In this document: positions 402-7,760 of the stretch, one piece after another
How positions within the stretch are numbered: the first letter of the stretch is position 1
Layout: each line of letters starts with the position of its first letter
Assembly (NCBI GenBank): GCA_027064485.1
Contig: JAMOPR010000256.1
Coordinates: 1 to 8,075 of the forward strand
DNA from: Desulfurobacteriaceae bacterium
GTDB taxonomy: Bacteria > Aquificota > Aquificia > Desulfurobacteriales > Desulfurobacteriaceae
DNA length: 8,075 nucleotides
Direction of reading: 5' to 3'
Notes under the pieces: model-generated
Databases searched by the model: none
What the model saw: the letters and a program-made list of their open reading frames with translations, nothing else
Told to the model about the DNA's origin: nothing
Translations under genes and position numbers: made by a program

Positions 402-1310
402 TTACCATCTCCATAGAGTTTCCCTGATTCTACCAAAGAGTTTTTTTGCAAGTTCTAAAAGTTTTCTGATTCTATCTTCTGTTGGCGGGTGAGTTGAGAA
501 TAAAGCAGCTATTGCATCTCCTTTCAGCGGGTTAACTATAAACAGATGGCTTGTGGCAGGATTTACTTCCTGTTTGGCTATTTCTGCTGGTATTCTGTGG
601 GCGTATTCTTCAAGTTTCTTAAGGGCGCTTGCTAAAGCTTCCGGCTTGCCGGAGATAATTCCTCCTGTTTCGTCAGCCTTATACTCTCTTGCCCTTGAAA
701 TAGCCATCTGGATTAAAGCTGCGGCTATTGGTGCTAAGATAACCATGAGAATTAGTCCTATCATTTCTGCCCATCCGCCGTTATCCTCTTCGTCTCTTGT
801 TCCACCGAACATCAAGAACCACTGTGCCATGTTAGCAAGGGTGGTTATTGCGCCGGCTATTGTTGCCGCTACAGCTTGAATAAGGGTATCTCTGTTTTTA
901 ATGTGGGCAATTTCGTGTGCTAAAACTCCTTCAAGTTCATCTTCGTTCAGCAGTTCTACGATTTTAGGTGTTACTACTACAACACCGTGTTCTGGGTTTC
1001 TACCTGTTGCAAAGGCGTTTGGAATGTCCATTGGAGCTATACCAACTTTTGGTTTGGGAATACCTGCGTTCTTTGCTAATCTTTCTACAATTGAGTGAAG
1101 CAGCGGTGCTTCTTCCTCTGAAAGCAACTTAACTCCATACATGGAAAGAACTATCTTGTCGGAGAAATACCAGCTTCCAAAGTTCATTATGGCAGCCATG
1201 AATAGAGCGATTACCATACCGGCGTTGCCGCCTAAAACCTTTCCAAATGCAATGAGAATTCCCGTTAAAAGTCCCAAAAGTAAAGTGGTTTTGATTGTGT
1301 TCCAGTTCAT
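402..1310 (-). CDS. htpX: HtpX, membrane-bound zinc metalloprotease (M48B)
   Basis: HtpX is an inner-membrane protease with its active site on the cytoplasmic side. It cuts damaged or misfolded membrane proteins and in other bacteria belongs to the envelope/heat stress response. The 302-residue length is normal for the family. Hydrophobic segments lie at about 8-27, 31-50, 142-168 and 183-204. The zinc site is complete: HEIAH at 132-136 (two His ligands and the catalytic Glu) and the third ligand E209 in SRAREYKAD. The conserved NAFATG (98-103) and the C-terminal FSTHPPTEDRI (271-281) are also present. The ATG at 1310 has a strong Shine-Dalgarno, GGAGGAG (1316-1322), six bases upstream. It lies 66 bases downstream of mutL and just before the second ClC gene, so it is probably cotranscribed, though a promoter of its own may lie in the gap. 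Nothing looks damaged. Confidence 0.95.
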   Translation of the reverse strand: MNWNTIKTTLLLGLLTGILIAFGKVLGGNAGMVIALFMAAIMNFGSWYFSDKIVLSMYGVKLLSEEEAPLLHSIVERLAKNAGIPKPKVGIAPMDIPNAFATGRNPEHGVVVVTPKIVELLNEDELEGVLAHEIAHIKNRDTLIQAVAATIAGAITTLANMAQWFLMFGGTRDEEDNGGWAEMIGLILMVILAPIAAALIQMAISRAREYKADETGGIISGKPEALASALKKLEEYAHRIPAEIAKQEVNPATSHLFIVNPLKGDAIAALFSTHPPTEDRIRKLLELAKKLFGRIRETLWRW

Positions 1311-1315
1311 TACTG

Positions 1316-1332
1316 CTCCTCCGTTTTAGGAG
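1316..1332 (-). promoter_or_regulatory. Hairpin covering the htpX ribosome binding site
   Basis: In the htpX mRNA sense the sequence reads CTCCT-AAAACGG-AGGAG, a five-base-pair stem whose right arm lies in the GGAGGAG Shine-Dalgarno. A shifted CTCC/GGAG pairing is also possible. The stem would hide the ribosome binding site when folded. It is short, so it may be no more than chance; an RNA-thermometer role is only inferred from the gene being a stress protease. Confidence 0.3.
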
Positions 1333-1346
1333 TTTTTGTTAAAGAT

Positions 1347-1375
1347 AAAATAGCCTTCTAAAAGGAAAACTACAA
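1347..1375 (-). promoter_or_regulatory. Possible promoter for htpX
   Basis: On the minus strand TTGTAG (1370-1375) is followed after 17 bases by TATTTT (1347-1352), a weak sigma-70-like pair placed just after the mutL stop. Transcription would begin near 1340 and give a leader of about 30 bases that consists almost entirely of the hairpin over the htpX ribosome binding site. htpX could therefore be read both from the operon and from this site. The hexamers are imperfect, so this is tentative. Confidence 0.3.
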
Positions 1376-1376
1376 C

Positions 1377-2819
1377 TTATCTACCTAAGTTTTTAAGGAT
1401 TTTTTTCCGTTTTATTTTGGTGTATATGGGTCTTCCGTGGGGACAAACTTCCCTTTCTTCGCACTGTAAGTATTTTTCAAATAGTTCTTCCACTTGAGAT
1501 GTGTCTACAGGAAAATAACCGCTTTTTATGGCTTTTTTACAGGCTATAGAGGCGATGCTTTCTGGGGTTTTCCCTTTGACAATTTCTATGATATCGTTCA
1601 CAGTCAATATTTCTGGTATGGCTGTTACTGTTATTTCTTTTCCTTCTGTAAAGAACTCTATTCCTGCGCTTTTTAGCTTGTTTTCCAGTTCTTTGCTGTA
1701 GGGAAATTTTAGGATTTGCGATAGCTTTAAGGTAGGAATTTTGCCGGCTTTCAGCCTTTTAATTAGTTCTTCGTAGTTTACCCTTTCATGTATGAGGTGT
1801 TGGTCGAAAAAGTAATAATATTCACTATCGTAGCCGATAATTATTGTTCCGTCCGTTCCTAATATTTTGATTTTTTCAGTTTTGTATTCGGCACGTTCTT
1901 CTTTAACGAACATTACGGAAGGTAGCGTTACTTCGGGCTTTAATTTAGTTTTTATCTTATTAAGGATTTCTCCGTTTTTTATTAGAACTCTGTCTTTTAA
2001 AGGTGTTACGTTTACGTCTATTTCTTCTGGTGGTAGATTTAGAAACAGTATGTAACTTCCAATATTCAACTCTTCCATGAGCCTTTTTATTTCGGGAATT
2101 TCTACCGGTCTTCTGTTGACGAAAATTAAGTTAATTTTTTTTCTCTCATCTTCCTCTCTTTTTTTGAAAAAGATGTGAAATTTATCTTCCTTTATTTCAC
2201 ACATGTGGGAGAGTCCGGTTATTTGTTTGATTCTTTCGTGGATGGAGGTGGCGGGGAGGATTTTTTCATTTATTTGAAAAGTTACGTCAGGATTTGCCAG
2301 TGCTAATGTTTTAATTGAACTAAGCATGTTACTTTTTTCTCTTTTGGAGATGCTTTTCCTTCTTACAGGAGTGTTAAAAAACAAATCCTCTACTAAAACT
2401 TTTGTTCCTTGAGAAAAAGGTATGGGTTTATATTCTATGATAGTGTTTTCACATACTTTGAGCTGTCCTCCTATTTTTTCTTTTTCATATCTACTCTTTA
2501 TAGTTAATTTTGACATTGAAGCGATTGCATATAGGGCTTCGCCTCTGAAACCGTAAGTTTTAAGTTTTGAAATATCGTTCAAATTTTCTATTTTACTCGT
2601 AGTGAACCGTTCAACCGTTAAAGGTAGTTCTTTAAAAGGAATACCCGTTCCGTCATCGGAAACGGAGAAGTTCGTTGCGTTTTTAATAACTATTTTTATC
2701 TTTTTTGCCTTTGCATCAAGGCTGTTTTCTATTAATTCCTTCAGAACAGCAGTAGGGGAAGATGCTATCTGTCCGGAAGAAATTATCCTTATTACGTTTT
2801 CTGGTAATTTTTTTATCAT
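1377..2819 (-). CDS. mutL: DNA mismatch repair protein MutL with C-terminal endonuclease site
   Basis: MutL is recruited by mismatch-bound MutS and, in bacteria without MutH, nicks the strand to be repaired. The N-terminal GHKL ATPase shows KELIENSLDA (27-36; E28 as catalytic base, N32 for Mg2+), DDGTGI (56-61), TSK (75-77) and GFRGEAL (91-97). FVNRRPVE and the VNVTPLK lysine loop follow. The C-terminal nuclease domain has DQHLIHERVNYE (339-350, fitting DQHxxxE-4-E), ACKKAIKSG from 426 and CPHGRP (459-464), which are the metal-site motifs. QILKFP at 368-373 fits the sliding-clamp binding motif seen in this domain. At 480 residues with a short linker it is compact, resembling Aquifex MutL. The usual AAGEV near the N terminus is replaced by SSGQI (14-18). 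Its ATG overlaps the upstream ClC stop (ATGA), which explains the lack of a separate leader and suggests translational coupling. I see no MutS gene in this window. Confidence 0.95.
   Translation of the reverse strand: MIKKLPENVIRIISSGQIASSPTAVLKELIENSLDAKAKKIKIVIKNATNFSVSDDGTGIPFKELPLTVERFTTSKIENLNDISKLKTYGFRGEALYAIASMSKLTIKSRYEKEKIGGQLKVCENTIIEYKPIPFSQGTKVLVEDLFFNTPVRRKSISKREKSNMLSSIKTLALANPDVTFQINEKILPATSIHERIKQITGLSHMCEIKEDKFHIFFKKREEDERKKINLIFVNRRPVEIPEIKRLMEELNIGSYILFLNLPPEEIDVNVTPLKDRVLIKNGEILNKIKTKLKPEVTLPSVMFVKEERAEYKTEKIKILGTDGTIIIGYDSEYYYFFDQHLIHERVNYEELIKRLKAGKIPTLKLSQILKFPYSKELENKLKSAGIEFFTEGKEITVTAIPEILTVNDIIEIVKGKTPESIASIACKKAIKSGYFPVDTSQVEELFEKYLQCEEREVCPHGRPIYTKIKRKKILKNLGR
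2816..2819 (-). other. ATGA stop/start overlap between ClC gene and mutL
   Basis: The minus-strand bases ATGA contain the mutL ATG (2819-2817) and the ClC TGA (2818-2816). Such overlaps usually mean that ribosomes finishing the first gene restart on the second, so mutL translation is expected to depend on translation of the ClC gene. Confidence 0.95.
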
Positions 2820-4561
2820 TCTAAAATTGACCTTCTTACCATGTATCTGCCTATATCTGACCTTGAAATAATACCCACAAGTTTCATCGATTCAAAGTCT
2901 TTAACCACGGGAGCTCTTCCAAATCCTTCTGATACAAAGAGTTTTAGGGTTTCTAATAAACTCCACTCAGGTAAAACGCACTTAGGTTTTGGAGTCATTA
3001 TTTCTTTGATTTTTATTTTTTCCATATCTTTTGCGCTAAGCTTCAGTATGTCTGATGTAGTTACGATTCCAACTACAATGTTGTTTACAACTACCGGAAC
3101 TCCCGAAATGAACTTCTCAGCCATTATTTTTCTTGCCTTTATAACGAAATCTTCGGGAGATACAGTAATAACGTTGGTAGTCATAATATCTTTTACTTTA
3201 GTTCTCTCCAACAGATAAATTTTGAATTCATCTTGGTGGAATGGAGATTCAAGGCGATTTTTAACTTGAGATTTGAATATCGTTCTCTTATTGCCTGTCA
3301 AAAGGTGAGCTACAACTATGGATATTATTGCGTAAGGTAGTAAATCGTATCCGTGAGTCATTTCTGCTACCAATACTATTGTAGACAGCGGAGCACTTGC
3401 AGCAGCTGTAAAAACTGAAATCATTCCCACTACCGTCATTGATGGAACGTTGAATATGTGTTCGTTTAAAATGTTATTGAAAAACATAGAAAGCCACGCT
3501 CCCGTTATACCTCCAACTACTAATGAAGGACCGAACACACCTCCCGAACCTCCGGAACCCAGAGTTAGAGAAAGAGCTAAGATTACTATGAATATGCTTA
3601 TAAAGAGCTTAAATTGCGATATATATAGCAGGTCTCCATCCATTAACATCTGTATCCAGCCGTATCCGTTACCTATGGCTAACGGTGTTATGATACCGCA
3701 TATTCCAACTAAAAATCCCCCCAACGCAGGCTTAAGATATGGATAAATAGGAATTTTCCTAAAAATCTCTTCAGTCCTGTAAAAAGTTGCTATAAGCAGT
3801 TTTGCTATTACTGCAGACAATATCCCCAAAACCACGTAACCGGCAATGATTTCCTGTGAGAAGTTCGGCTTTGAAGAGTTAATCCTAAATAAAGAATGAA
3901 AACCGATAAAACTACCGGCTACGAGGTAAGCAACGATAGAAGCTAAAAATCCGGGAATTAAAGCTTCCACTTCAAAATCTTCCTTGTAAAAAACTTCTGC
4001 GCTTAGGATTCCTCCTGCAAGAGGTGCCCTGAATACAGCTCCTATACCGGCACCCAATCCTGCAGCCAGCAGAATATTTTGCTCTTTGGGAGTTGTTTTA
4101 AAAAATTTGCCTATGGCTTTACCTATGCTTGCTCCGATTAATGCCATAGGACCTTCTCTTCCGGACGTTCCTCCAGAACTTATGGTTATTGCAGAGGTTA
4201 TAAGTTTTAAAACGGCTGTTCTTATTCCTAATGGTAAACTTTTGTGAAACGCTTTTATGGCTGCGTCGGTTCCAACTCCAGCAGATTCGGGGGATAAAAA
4301 GTATGTCAATAATCCGGTAATCAATCCTCCAAGGGCTGTTACAAATGGTAAAATTAGAAAGTCTATTGGAGAATAGATGTATACGTTTTTTCCTCCTTCC
4401 CCGAAAGGTTTAGGGGGGTGGTAGTCAACCAAATTTTCTAAAAAGAGGTGGGTAGAGTAATCTAAAGCTTTTAAAAAAAGTATAGTAAATACCCCTGCAA
4501 TTATCCCTACAGGAATAGAAAGAAGAGCTATTCTTTTTATGTTTAGCCTTTCTTTTATCAT
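2816..4561 (-). CDS. ClC-family anion channel/transporter with C-terminal CBS pair
   Basis: This is a 581-residue membrane protein with the ClC core at about 10-425 and two CBS domains at about 455-508 and 517-575. ClC proteins are dimers that pass chloride or similar anions, either as channels or coupled to H+; CBS pairs often bind adenine nucleotides and regulate. The gating glutamate is present in GREGP (134-138, E136), and the second filter motif is GSGGSGGVFGP (335-345). Several pore positions differ from the E. coli exchanger. GSGIP is replaced by GVGTD (95-99), the inner proton glutamate aligns with V190 (in APLAGGILSAEV), and the pore tyrosine aligns with F429 (in TIFKSQV). GREGP argues against the fluoride-specific branch. 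The start at 4561 is the only one after an in-frame TAA and has no Shine-Dalgarno. It is the first gene of the leftward operon and overlaps mutL by four bases. Whether it is a channel or an exchanger cannot be settled from sequence. Confidence 0.93.
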   Translation of the reverse strand: MIKERLNIKRIALLSIPVGIIAGVFTILFLKALDYSTHLFLENLVDYHPPKPFGEGGKNVYIYSPIDFLILPFVTALGGLITGLLTYFLSPESAGVGTDAAIKAFHKSLPLGIRTAVLKLITSAITISSGGTSGREGPMALIGASIGKAIGKFFKTTPKEQNILLAAGLGAGIGAVFRAPLAGGILSAEVFYKEDFEVEALIPGFLASIVAYLVAGSFIGFHSLFRINSSKPNFSQEIIAGYVVLGILSAVIAKLLIATFYRTEEIFRKIPIYPYLKPALGGFLVGICGIITPLAIGNGYGWIQMLMDGDLLYISQFKLFISIFIVILALSLTLGSGGSGGVFGPSLVVGGITGAWLSMFFNNILNEHIFNVPSMTVVGMISVFTAAASAPLSTIVLVAEMTHGYDLLPYAIISIVVAHLLTGNKRTIFKSQVKNRLESPFHQDEFKIYLLERTKVKDIMTTNVITVSPEDFVIKARKIMAEKFISGVPVVVNNIVVGIVTTSDILKLSAKDMEKIKIKEIMTPKPKCVLPEWSLLETLKLFVSEGFGRAPVVKDFESMKLVGIISRSDIGRYMVRRSILE

Positions 4562-4647: not shown

Positions 4648-4666
4648 GATAAAAGAAATTAAAAAG

Positions 4667-4673
4667 AGGAGGT
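4667..4673 (+). promoter_or_regulatory. Strong ribosome binding site of the DUF505-like gene
   Basis: AGGAGGT is a full match to the anti-Shine-Dalgarno sequence and ends seven bases before the ATG at 4681. It fixes this start and predicts efficient translation, in contrast with the poorer GGGGG site of the next gene. Confidence 0.85.
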
Positions 4674-4680
4674 AGAAAGC

Positions 4681-6624
4681 ATGGTAATAAGAAAAGAGCA
4701 CGCAATTGCTCTGCTGAGAGTAAGGGAGGAGGAATTAAACAGCGCTCCTACTTGCCAGTTATTTACAAAAAGTGAGGATGCTCCTTATCTTGAGCTTGAA
4801 AGAATGGGACTTTTGAGAATGGTTAGACCTCTTGAGTATTCCCTTACTTACTGGGGAAGGGCTTTGGCTAACATCATAGATGAAATGGTTCAAAAAGGTC
4901 TTATTGAGCATCCTTCAAAGTGGGATGATGATTTTAGATGGCTTGGTTCCGAAGTTATCATGATGATTGAAACAGCAATAGAAAACGATGACTTGCCAGG
5001 TTACCTTACCGAAGAGGAGCTTGAGAAGAGAGGTTTTATTGAAGAAAGAAAGCTGGAAAAGAAAGGAACGTTTAAAGCTATCAATCAGTATGCTAAAGAC
5101 ATCTATTCTATATTCCAGAACGCTCATCCAAGATTAATAATTGATAGAGAACTTTGCGAGTATATTAAGAAAATGCCTTCTGGTCCTGCTGATTCCTCTG
5201 AACTTCCTGTAGGTGGTAGATTCCCCATTATGCTTGGAGCTATGAGATTGTTAGCATTTTCTGTTCCGAAGTCTGATGTTTACTCTTTAACTGCTTTAGG
5301 GCAAGAAATTAAAAAAGCCTGTGAAACTATAGCTCCTTCGTTAGAAACTGTTATTTCCGAAGATATAATGGATAGCCTTGAGAGAGCTGTTTTTGAGGGT
5401 TTTGAATCTGTTACTGAAGAAGAAAAGGAAGTTCTTTTCAAGCTTGCTTTGATAGATGACGAAGGAAATCCACTACCTGCCGGTGAACATTTGATTAACG
5501 CTTACCGCGTTTGGAAGGAAAGGAGCTTCAAGCCTGTTAAGTCTATTAACGTTGAGATTCTTGATGCGGAAATACTTAAAGGTATTGAAGAAGTGTGGAA
5601 ACATCATGAATCTGACCCATCTGTAATGCCAACGGTTGATGAAATAGTTCATTATCTCTTCTATAAACCGTTAAAAGAATACAAGCATCTGATTCAGCAT
5701 TATGGTAGAAGACTTTATCAAGATTTAGGTTATCAGAAGAAAGAAGAAATTATGAAGAAGTTTTCAGAAGTTAAAACTGTAGAAGAGTTGTTCAAAAGTT
5801 TCTATGAAAAAGGCAATCGCTGGTATGAAAAGATGTATGATATCGTTCAAGAATCTCTCTATACCCTTGAATCTTTCAACTTAGTTAGAGCTGAAGAGAA
5901 AGAAGGTAAGAAAGTTCACTACCTTACAGAGTTCGGAAAGAAAGTTCTTGAAGATATGAAAACCCGTGGCTTTAGGGAAATACCTGCTACTGCCGTTAAA
6001 TCTATTACGATAACCAACAAGGAGTTTGCTGCCCCTAATGTTGATTGGTATAAAAAAGGAGTAGAAGCTCAATTAATTGGTGGCGGTGAGCCAACCGTTG
6101 CAGGTAGGATGTATGCTCAGATGGCTTACGAGATTAAGAGATTACCCCACGTTACAAGGTTTGAACTTCAAGTTCTTCACAAAATTCCCGAAAAAGGATT
6201 TTTCGTTAAAGATGTTTACGAACAGTTTGATGAAACGTGGCAGGAAGAGATTGAATACGCTCTCAACAAATTGGAAGCTCGTGGCTACATAGATATCCTT
6301 CAAAATGAAGCAATTGTTCTCACCGAGCCTGGAAAACTTATAAAGAAAGCTCTTTCTGGAACACCTGAGGGATTTGCTAATCCAATTACTCCGCTTGCAG
6401 TAAGAGTATTGGCAGCTTTAAGAGAAGTGGGAACCCTCTACGAGAAAGAAAAGAAAGTGAGAATATTACCTAAGAACTTTGAAAAAGCTGTTAAACTTTC
6501 CGGACTTGACCCGAAGACCTTTGAGGAAGAACTCGTTATCCTCAGAGCTTCTAACCTTATAGGTAAGAACTCAATTAACGAGGCAGGTCTTTTAATTCTT
6601 GAAGCTTTAGATAAGTTAAATTAA
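4681..6624 (+). CDS. DUF505-like protein built of repeated winged-helix-like modules, function unknown
   Basis: This is a 647-residue soluble protein with no signal peptide or membrane segment. From memory it belongs to the DUF505 family, whose function I do not know. What the sequence shows is a repeated pattern: a helix, a turn with a leucine-rich 'LxxxGLI'-type end, a short wing, then LTxxGxxI and another helix. The LT..G marks are LTYWGRALANI (55-65), LTALGQEIKKA (203-213), a weaker LPAGEHLINAY (265-275), LTEFGKKVLED (415-425), LTEPGKLIKKA (548-558) and a diverged INEAGLLILEA (632-642). The unit at about 492-560 has the full helix-helix-helix-wing-helix order typical of MarR-like winged helices. 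About six such units would make it a DNA- or RNA-binding scaffold, which is inference. It has only three cysteines (C25, C159, C214), so no metal site is evident. It is followed after 62 bases by another unknown gene on the same strand. Confidence 0.88.
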   Translation: MVIRKEHAIALLRVREEELNSAPTCQLFTKSEDAPYLELERMGLLRMVRPLEYSLTYWGRALANIIDEMVQKGLIEHPSKWDDDFRWLGSEVIMMIETAIENDDLPGYLTEEELEKRGFIEERKLEKKGTFKAINQYAKDIYSIFQNAHPRLIIDRELCEYIKKMPSGPADSSELPVGGRFPIMLGAMRLLAFSVPKSDVYSLTALGQEIKKACETIAPSLETVISEDIMDSLERAVFEGFESVTEEEKEVLFKLALIDDEGNPLPAGEHLINAYRVWKERSFKPVKSINVEILDAEILKGIEEVWKHHESDPSVMPTVDEIVHYLFYKPLKEYKHLIQHYGRRLYQDLGYQKKEEIMKKFSEVKTVEELFKSFYEKGNRWYEKMYDIVQESLYTLESFNLVRAEEKEGKKVHYLTEFGKKVLEDMKTRGFREIPATAVKSITITNKEFAAPNVDWYKKGVEAQLIGGGEPTVAGRMYAQMAYEIKRLPHVTRFELQVLHKIPEKGFFVKDVYEQFDETWQEEIEYALNKLEARGYIDILQNEAIVLTEPGKLIKKALSGTPEGFANPITPLAVRVLAALREVGTLYEKEKKVRILPKNFEKAVKLSGLDPKTFEEELVILRASNLIGKNSINEAGLLILEALDKLN

Positions 6625-6635
6625 GTTTAAAGTAG

Positions 6636-6666
6636 GGGGGAGTTGCTTTTATTCTCCCCCTTTGTT
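6636..6666 (+). terminator. GC-rich hairpin between the two unknown genes, weak terminator or attenuator
   Basis: GGGGGAG (6636-6642) pairs with CTCCCCC (6654-6660) around an 11-base loop and is followed by TTTGTT, a poor U-tract. It could stop part of the transcripts after the DUF505-like gene and so lower expression of the next one. The CCCCC arm could instead pair with the GGGGG ribosome binding site at 6676-6680, so the two structures would exclude each other. Confidence 0.5.
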
Positions 6667-6686: not shown

Positions 6687-7760
6687 ATGGCTCACATCTA
6701 TGGAAAAGTTGAAACACCAGAAGATATTAGTCGGATTAACTGCACCATTAGAGACGAAATGCTTGAAGTAGAAACTCCTGAACAACTTACAGACTTAAAA
6801 AAGCGTTCCGATTATTTGTGCACATTAACCTTTTCTCCTTTCTGGAAAAAGAAGTTCGGTTCTACAATTGAGGATTTGAGAGAAGTTGCGTTAGCAGAAA
6901 ATAGAATAACAGTTAAGCTTGCTAATTATGTTGCTCGATATAAAAACTGGGATAAAGTCTATTCGCCTTGGGGTAAAGATAAAAAGACAATAGATGAGCG
7001 TTTAAAAGAAATACCTGAAAGCGTTATTAAAGAGATAACCGAAAGTGTTGTTGATTTGAGGCTCTCTCCAGAAATTTTGGAAGAGTTACGCAGAACTTTC
7101 TGTGAGATAAGGAAAGCTATGATTCTTGCAGAAGACCAAGAGTTACTTGAAAGGTTGAAAAGGCAAAGTGACCTTATTGTTGCCGTGGTGCATCTTAGAG
7201 ATTTTAAAGAGCGTTTTGCCGATGTTTTGGACAAAATAGAGAAGTTAGTAGAGGCTGAAGAGAAAAGAACTGTGAAACTTGCAAATATTATGGCTGCTGT
7301 TAAAGGGTGGCAGGTGGAGTTTGAGCTTTGGGATGAAAGCGATATTAGAGAAGATGAAACTCTTGAACAATACGTTGAAAGGCTTATGGAAGAAGAGGAA
7401 AAAGCTTCCAGATACGTTCCGACAGAAACTAAATATAAAGAGGGAAAAGTCCTTTGGCTTGTTTATTATCATTCAAAAAGAGATAGACATTTTGCCAAAA
7501 GAATCTATTTCCCGGGCAGTGCTAAAGATATAAAGATAGAAGGTCCTGGAAAGTTTGAAAACAGATTTGGAAGAAAAGTTTGGGGTGTAAAAATTGTTTA
7601 TAAGGCAAAGGTTGCTCCTGCCGTTATTAGAATAGGTAAAAAGATAATTCACTTACCAGAAAGATGGGTAGAAAGAGTAAAAGTTGTTCCTCTGCCGAAA
7701 GAAGCTACTGAGGTTAAACTTTACGAGGAAAGACCTGAATTTGCTTATCCTGTTGCTTAA
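6687..7760 (+). CDS. Unknown protein with internal duplication and beta-rich C-terminal domain
   Basis: I do not recognise this 357-residue protein. It has no signal peptide or membrane segment. Residues about 10-110 and 130-233 are two copies of one charged helical unit. LKKRSDYL (37-44) matches LKRQSDLI (157-164), TVKLAN occurs at 75-80 and again at 195-200, W88 and W95 match W208 and W215, and C19 matches C139, all exactly 120 residues apart. The extra four residues in the second copy fall only after W215. Residues about 250-340 alternate hydrophobic and basic residues (KVLWLVYYHSKR, KRIYFPG, VWGVKIVYKAKV, VIRIGKKIIHLP), suggesting a basic beta domain, perhaps a nucleic-acid or protein binding barrel; this is inference. 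The gene follows the DUF505-like gene by 62 bases on the same strand and is closed by a strong terminator, so the two probably form one unit. The start at 6687 is supported by GGGGG at six bases. Confidence 0.85.
   Translation: MAHIYGKVETPEDISRINCTIRDEMLEVETPEQLTDLKKRSDYLCTLTFSPFWKKKFGSTIEDLREVALAENRITVKLANYVARYKNWDKVYSPWGKDKKTIDERLKEIPESVIKEITESVVDLRLSPEILEELRRTFCEIRKAMILAEDQELLERLKRQSDLIVAVVHLRDFKERFADVLDKIEKLVEAEEKRTVKLANIMAAVKGWQVEFELWDESDIREDETLEQYVERLMEEEEKASRYVPTETKYKEGKVLWLVYYHSKRDRHFAKRIYFPGSAKDIKIEGPGKFENRFGRKVWGVKIVYKAKVAPAVIRIGKKIIHLPERWVERVKVVPLPKEATEVKLYEERPEFAYPVA

Follow-up and report, generated by a model that had tools for sequence, protein, structure and literature searches.

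Most winged helices are binders of nucleic acid, whether DNA or RNA; MarR, HcaR and HrcA are DNA-binding proteins with one winged helix per chain, and RPC62 has four. In TFIIH, the component p52 is reported to contain winged helices and to bring in the ATPase XPB; its contact with the RecA-fold part of XPB is reportedly made through its C-terminal clutch and a p8-binding module, not through the winged helices (PMC6422496). The abstract of a paper on human TFIIIC uses the phrase "multiple winged-helix domains" (PMC11811891). A further relevant protein is aRDF of Pyrococcus furiosus, whose N-terminus is reported to resemble LmrR, eS10 and CodY; according to the same paper, predicted structures like that of aRDF exist in three bacteria and two further archaea, while by sequence its authors found aRDF in Pyrococcus only (PMC11724365). 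The protein analysed here, a member of Pfam family DUF505, is predicted to string eight such units together in a single acidic chain.

The window, by which we mean the whole 8,075-nucleotide stretch analysed (contig JAMOPR010000256.1 of a Desulfurobacteriaceae bacterium), carries at 4681..6624 on the plus strand an ORF of 647 aa. Its product is a full-length DUF505 (PF04458) protein of equal length and order: the profile matches over positions 1-621 of 622 with E 5.9e-240 and 798.3 bits, the curated cut-off being 28.7. Direct sequence reading places a Shine-Dalgarno-like GAGGAGGT (4666..4673, +) 5' of the start, and a pattern scan places a terminator-like GC-rich hairpin (6635..6659, +) 3' of the gene, one of 5 terminator-like hairpins that the scan found in the region, where shuffled sequence gives 2.7 on average. 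By Pfam, the genes at 402-4561 on the minus strand are ordinary neighbours encoding an M48-family peptidase, a MutL-like protein (480 aa) and a chloride-channel protein with CBS domains; Rfam gave no match within the window. The closest relative among the matches listed has 95% identity and is named Desulfurobacterium pacificum. DUF505 is spread over distant lineages, with records labelled Aquificota, Campylobacterota and WOR-3, and Thermotoga maritima and Methanocaldococcus jannaschii, which served as controls, were also positive in the control search. As side observations, DUF505 is split into two frames in one Sulfurihydrogenibium MAG (L053 6001-7938) and likewise in a genome belonging to the Campylobacterota sample (G141:C1:1315848-1317678).

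DUF505 is an established family, yet uncharacterised. In the literature searched, the whole word DUF505 had no match, and neither the architecture nor the KaiC link described below was found; the matches to DUF505 as the start of a word that were checked proved to be DUF5059, and PF04458 returned an unrelated drug-repurposing title only. The papers listed on multiple winged helices within a single chain, on the SDH protease and on KaiC-like ATPases as hubs likewise showed nothing about DUF505. No relative was found on viral contigs, nor on plasmids, for which the distant member P0160 served as the query. The 647-aa protein has no match in a PDB sequence search, in PADLOC, or at E < 0.001 in a viral structure library; PDB profile matches such as PrgI (E 0.012-0.037) were set aside as chance, as they cover a single helical stretch.

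The modular nature of the chain is first apparent from its wing-helix junctions. The original prediction had placed the motif LTxxGxxI at residues 55, 203, 415 and 548, and its recurrence is real: LT..G..[ILVM] occurs at 55, 203, 415 and 547, against a shuffle mean of 0.043, and four copies were reached in 0/5000 shuffles. Both weaker copies expected near 265 and 632 are present (LPAGEHLI, read from the sequence, and INEAGLLI), as are the LxxxGLI-like turns said to precede the motifs, found at 39, 114 and 531 with the pattern L-x-x-x-G-L/F/Y-L/I and by reading at 396 (LESFNLV). A looser pattern, [LIVFP][TSN]..[GA]..[ILVMY], gives 8 matches against a shuffle mean of 0.90 (8 reached in 0/5000 shuffles) and brings two further junctions, at 134 (INQYAKDI) and 471 (PTVAGRMY); its match at 569 is not a junction, and the junction at 265 escapes it. 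All eight junctions fall at the passage from wing to next helix in the AlphaFold model. Seven of the eight junctions have a glycine (G59, G207, G268, G419, G475, G551 and G636) that is either invariant across 35 diverse members or conserved to 90% or more, unit 2 having Ala138 instead. The expectation of many modules thus holds, while the figure of about six was an undercount that missed the junctions at 134 and 471.

Two AlphaFold models of the whole protein agree, the second with a pLDDT of 90.4 and a pTM of 0.88, and pLDDT exceeds 80 in every ten-residue block except 321-380, where it is 61-78. On these models the protein can be described, with good confidence, as a chain of eight predicted winged-helix units, not six, and the pTM points to a rigid arrangement of the chain; no continuous non-winged-helix fold is predicted, in agreement with the earlier proposal of one polypeptide built from many winged-helix modules. 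The assignment is firmest for units 1 (4681..4893, residues 1-71), 5, 7 (6148..6351, residues 490-557) and 8 (6385..6618, residues 569-646), all units lying on the plus strand. Model units 7, 8 and 1 superpose on the solved winged-helix domains of MarR, HcaR and 1stz, the last of which we take to be HrcA, at 1.6-2.4 A over 67-74 residues; DUF505 differs from these proteins in having eight predicted units in one acidic chain. Unit 5 (5551..5967, residues 291-327 and 381-429) is split by an inserted arm. It has no clean single-unit superposition among the matches listed, and its fold is putatively that of a winged helix, from profiles and predicted structure: DUF4364 matches in 21/35 members and HTH_45 in 19/35, at E up to 0.5, the winged-helix match mapping to residues 385-429 of the window protein, and its profile matches that of unit 7 with E 8.3e-5.

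The other four units have a predicted strand-helix order that fits a winged helix. Units 2 (4936..5121, residues 86-147) and 6 (5977..6132, residues 433-484) are placed by predicted secondary structure only, with no convincing winged-helix profile match in Pfam scans of 16 members each. Unit 3 (5137..5328, residues 153-216) has no Pfam winged-helix match in a scan of 16 members; its profile aligns with that of unit 1 over 63 columns, with an E of 0.0044 that applies to that one comparison. Unit 4 (5347..5520, residues 223-280) shows weak HTH or winged-helix matches in single members only (E 0.033 and 0.077; Pfam scan of 16 members). Taken together, the unit profiles are more alike among themselves than to reversed controls (28 vs 56 pairs, p 0.008). 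A winged-helix match for the individual segment was obtained for units 1, 7 and 8 by structure and for unit 5 by profile. For units 2, 3, 4 and 6 no convincing profile match came up, an outcome that the original prediction had named as refuting it; the model does not refute it there. Separately, small ORFs of 146-202 aa match the unit-5 region of DUF505 alone with E of about 5e-4 to 6.5e-4 (G345:C12:3443-3631, G373:C20:34141-34326 and G134:C1:449994-450206); judged from these matches, they are perhaps free-standing single winged-helix proteins.

The genes around DUF505 vary with lineage among the loci fetched. Short-form DUF505 genes mostly share an operon with genes for a KaiC-like ATPase (PF06745) and a ClpP-like protease of the SDH type (PF01972). 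In six of the ten short-form loci (L081-L085 and L087) the KaiC-like ATPase, an HTH protein, DUF505 and the SDH protease follow one another in this order, several of these rows having few-base gaps or an overlap; the HTH protein has 207 aa and weak ParB-like matches. The other four loci hold partial sets: KaiC, DUF505 and SDH in L086, HTH, DUF505 and SDH in L088, on a 4.3-kb contig, and DUF505 with SDH in L079 and L080, the DUF505 frame being split in L080. One long-form locus from Aquificota (L029) has SDH, DUF505 and KaiC within 4.6 kb, a riboflavin-synthase-like gene (identified by eye) separating the first two, and in two genomes (G062 and G392) KaiC adjoins SDH, with DUF505 on a different contig. 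In the window, as in most of the long-form loci fetched, KaiC is not adjacent to DUF505.

Co-occurrence across genomes also points to KaiC. In a sample of 120 genomes from the phylum of G066, which includes the genome of locus L050, labelled WOR-3, DUF505 is over the cut-off in 22 genomes (2 more below it) and KaiC, at E up to 1e-30, is present in 29; KaiC occurs in 20/22 DUF505-positive vs 9/98 other genomes (Fisher p 6.6e-14, kinship ignored). SDH occurs in 30/120 of these genomes, 19 of them with DUF505 (p 1.0e-11, kinship ignored). Among 249 Campylobacterota genomes, 16 have DUF505 (1 more below the cut-off) and 9 have KaiC at E up to 1e-20, with KaiC in 8/16 DUF505-positive vs 1/233 others (p 3.4e-10, kinship ignored). 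The third sample consisted of 61 genomes no more distant than the class of the window, the window's genome among them, and 32 of these have DUF505; here KaiC is found in 30/32 genomes with DUF505 vs 27/29 without, and co-occurrence is uninformative because KaiC is near-universal in this class. The idea that DUF505, KaiC and SDH form a strict module was rejected, since in the window's class KaiC (57/61) and SDH (58/61 over the cut-off) are present regardless of DUF505, and it is also contradicted by the Campylobacterota sample, where a search run without a positive control found SDH in 0/249. KaiC at 1e-30 is missing, as is SDH, from two DUF505-bearing relatives (G022 and G023). As far as gene order and genome content can tell, DUF505 likely works with a KaiC-like ATPase, which for its part does not require DUF505.

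The next gene in the window (6687..7760, +) encodes a family-specific protein of 357 aa that is internally duplicated, with two copies of a helical segment (30/96 identical, E 2e-16), and has no Pfam match below E 0.1. Its relatives occur in 18 of 72 sources (71 loci and the window), and these give 14 distinct sequences because some loci represent the same place or genome twice. Among the loci fetched, all of them neighbour a DUF505 gene that shares 65% or more identity with that of the window; the gene is absent from two near relatives, L012 and L015, with at least 1.29 kb downstream available. The hairpin at 6635-6659 lies between the two genes and makes joint transcription uncertain, and the 357-aa protein is not clearly part of a DUF505 system. 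On the 5' side, a different set of genes is seen in L057 and L060 (4301-6004), from Aquifex-titled or related MAGs, in which three genes with few-base mutual overlaps directly precede DUF505. Their products have 227-229, 240-241 and 98-99 aa; in L004, a relative of the second has no Pfam match and a relative of the third is prefoldin-like.

The charge of the protein is informative about what its units might hold. Across 83 relatives the net charge of DUF505 has a median of -18 (range -39 to +6) and is positive in one, the remaining 82 being acidic or neutral. The median charge of each of the eight recognition helices is 0 to -3, none positive, which, on the DUF505 members' own charges alone, is not the basic recognition helix of the MarR type; individual helices are positive in 0 to 24 of the 83 depending on the unit (24 for unit 8, 15 for unit 2), and that of unit 3 in the window protein is +1. 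Since the recognition helices have so little positive charge, DUF505 likely holds proteins rather than DNA. Codon adaptation, an indirect measure of abundance, was scored against 24 genes of the ribosomal-protein region of G003, a closed genome of the same family, in which DUF505 ranks 144/303 sampled frames; on the same weights the DUF505 gene of the window would rank 184/304. High expression was rejected on this average rank, and a nucleoid-coating protein, which would be basic and very abundant, fits neither the median charge nor the codon rank.

The exception to the acidic chain is a helical arm of residues 329-380 (5665..5820, +), which sits within unit 5 and separates its helices 2 and 3. 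It is basic in 83/83 relatives (net charge median +4, range +2 to +8) and is among the best-conserved residues of DUF505, and no other part of the model has a lower confidence. The 111 tree sequences (109 distinct) include 9 without the arm, which form a single clade with support 0.999; in these armless short forms the profile match jumps from model position 306-333 to 378-392, and 10 further tree sequences retain 35-39 of 51 counted arm positions. Loss of the arm from a chain that still aligns on both flanks fits the unit boundaries. We infer that the arm is a contact with a partner.

Our preferred, though tentative, reading is that DUF505 is a rigid, acidic scaffold of eight units that holds proteins, probably a KaiC-like ATPase, and is not a DNA-binding regulator. 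Its winged-helix units would grip protein rather than DNA, the partner would be the KaiC-like ATPase encoded elsewhere in the genome, as the short-form operon and the co-occurrence suggest, and the basic arm of unit 5 would supply the contact. Confidence in the function of DUF505 overall is moderate at best. The role of a chromatin or RNA scaffold or a multi-site regulator, put forward in the original prediction, is not supported: the protein is acidic, none of the recognition helices has a positive median charge, and codon usage is average. In its more general form, a multi-site nucleic-acid binder (chromatin protein, RNA scaffold or transcription regulator) gripping through the basic arm and some of the units, we consider it unlikely, yet the strongest competitor. 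The net charge leaves room for such binding in the arm, in unit 3 of the window protein and in the members with a positive unit 8; moreover, nucleic acid is the usual ligand of winged helices, the arm is basic in every relative, the short-form operon includes the HTH protein with its ParB-like matches, and in Campylobacterota a Crp-type regulator and DUF1931 are found close to DUF505. Besides the charge and codon data, what tells against it is the clade that lacks the arm and yet aligns over the rest of the chain.

The neighbours themselves could be read as placing DUF505 in a proteostasis or redox module, with a role in the stress response. In L058, L092 and L093 the gene row consists of a Crp-type regulator, YfdX, DUF1931, DUF308, DUF505 and a peroxiredoxin-type gene (families scanned on one member per cluster), and it resembles a cluster for stress tolerance; in L081-L083 there is a ClpB-type ATPase upstream on the opposite strand, and the ClpP-like protease is also among the neighbours. 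However, such neighbours are lineage-specific and absent around most DUF505 genes fetched, and we hold this explanation to be improbable. The same Campylobacterota row is also seen, in truncated form, in L070.

Comparison of the models with known structures bears on two further possibilities. With both models Foldseek puts TFIIH, pre-initiation and RNA polymerase III complexes first, followed by IdeR/DtxR/MntR repressors and aRDF with methyltransferase rows interspersed; none of these matches is significant. The rows mostly name the complex only, and we take the matching chains to be p52 and RPC62 (2xub is named RPC62); their best E values are 0.022 and 0.11 with a TM of about 0.1, and there is no sequence relation. 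The likeness of p52 to DUF505 is one of kind, p52 having several winged helices and recruiting an ATPase with RecA-like domains. DUF505 might be a prokaryotic counterpart in kind of p52: it would hold and regulate a RecA-fold (KaiC-like) ATPase, its basic arm acting as a mobile clutch and, in some lineages, the ClpP-like protease serving as output. This is rather less probable still; the reported contact of p52 with XPB outside its winged helices lowered its probability somewhat. Least probable of all is a ribosome-subunit-binding factor like archaeal aRDF, a winged-helix chain clamping rRNA, for although aRDF chains appear among the Foldseek rows with both models and similar structures are predicted in the archaea and bacteria mentioned above, these rows are not significant (E 0.56-1.2 with the first model and 0.49-0.97 with the second; TM-score by target 0.14-0.20), PDB sequence and profile searches gave no sequence match of aRDF to DUF505, and aRDF, of about 295 residues, is reported to have a positively charged rRNA-facing surface (PMC11724365), whereas DUF505 is acidic.

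A chain of eight winged-helix units in one prokaryotic protein would broaden a design familiar mainly from transcription complexes of eukaryotes, and through the KaiC link the DUF505 family would gain its first testable partner.
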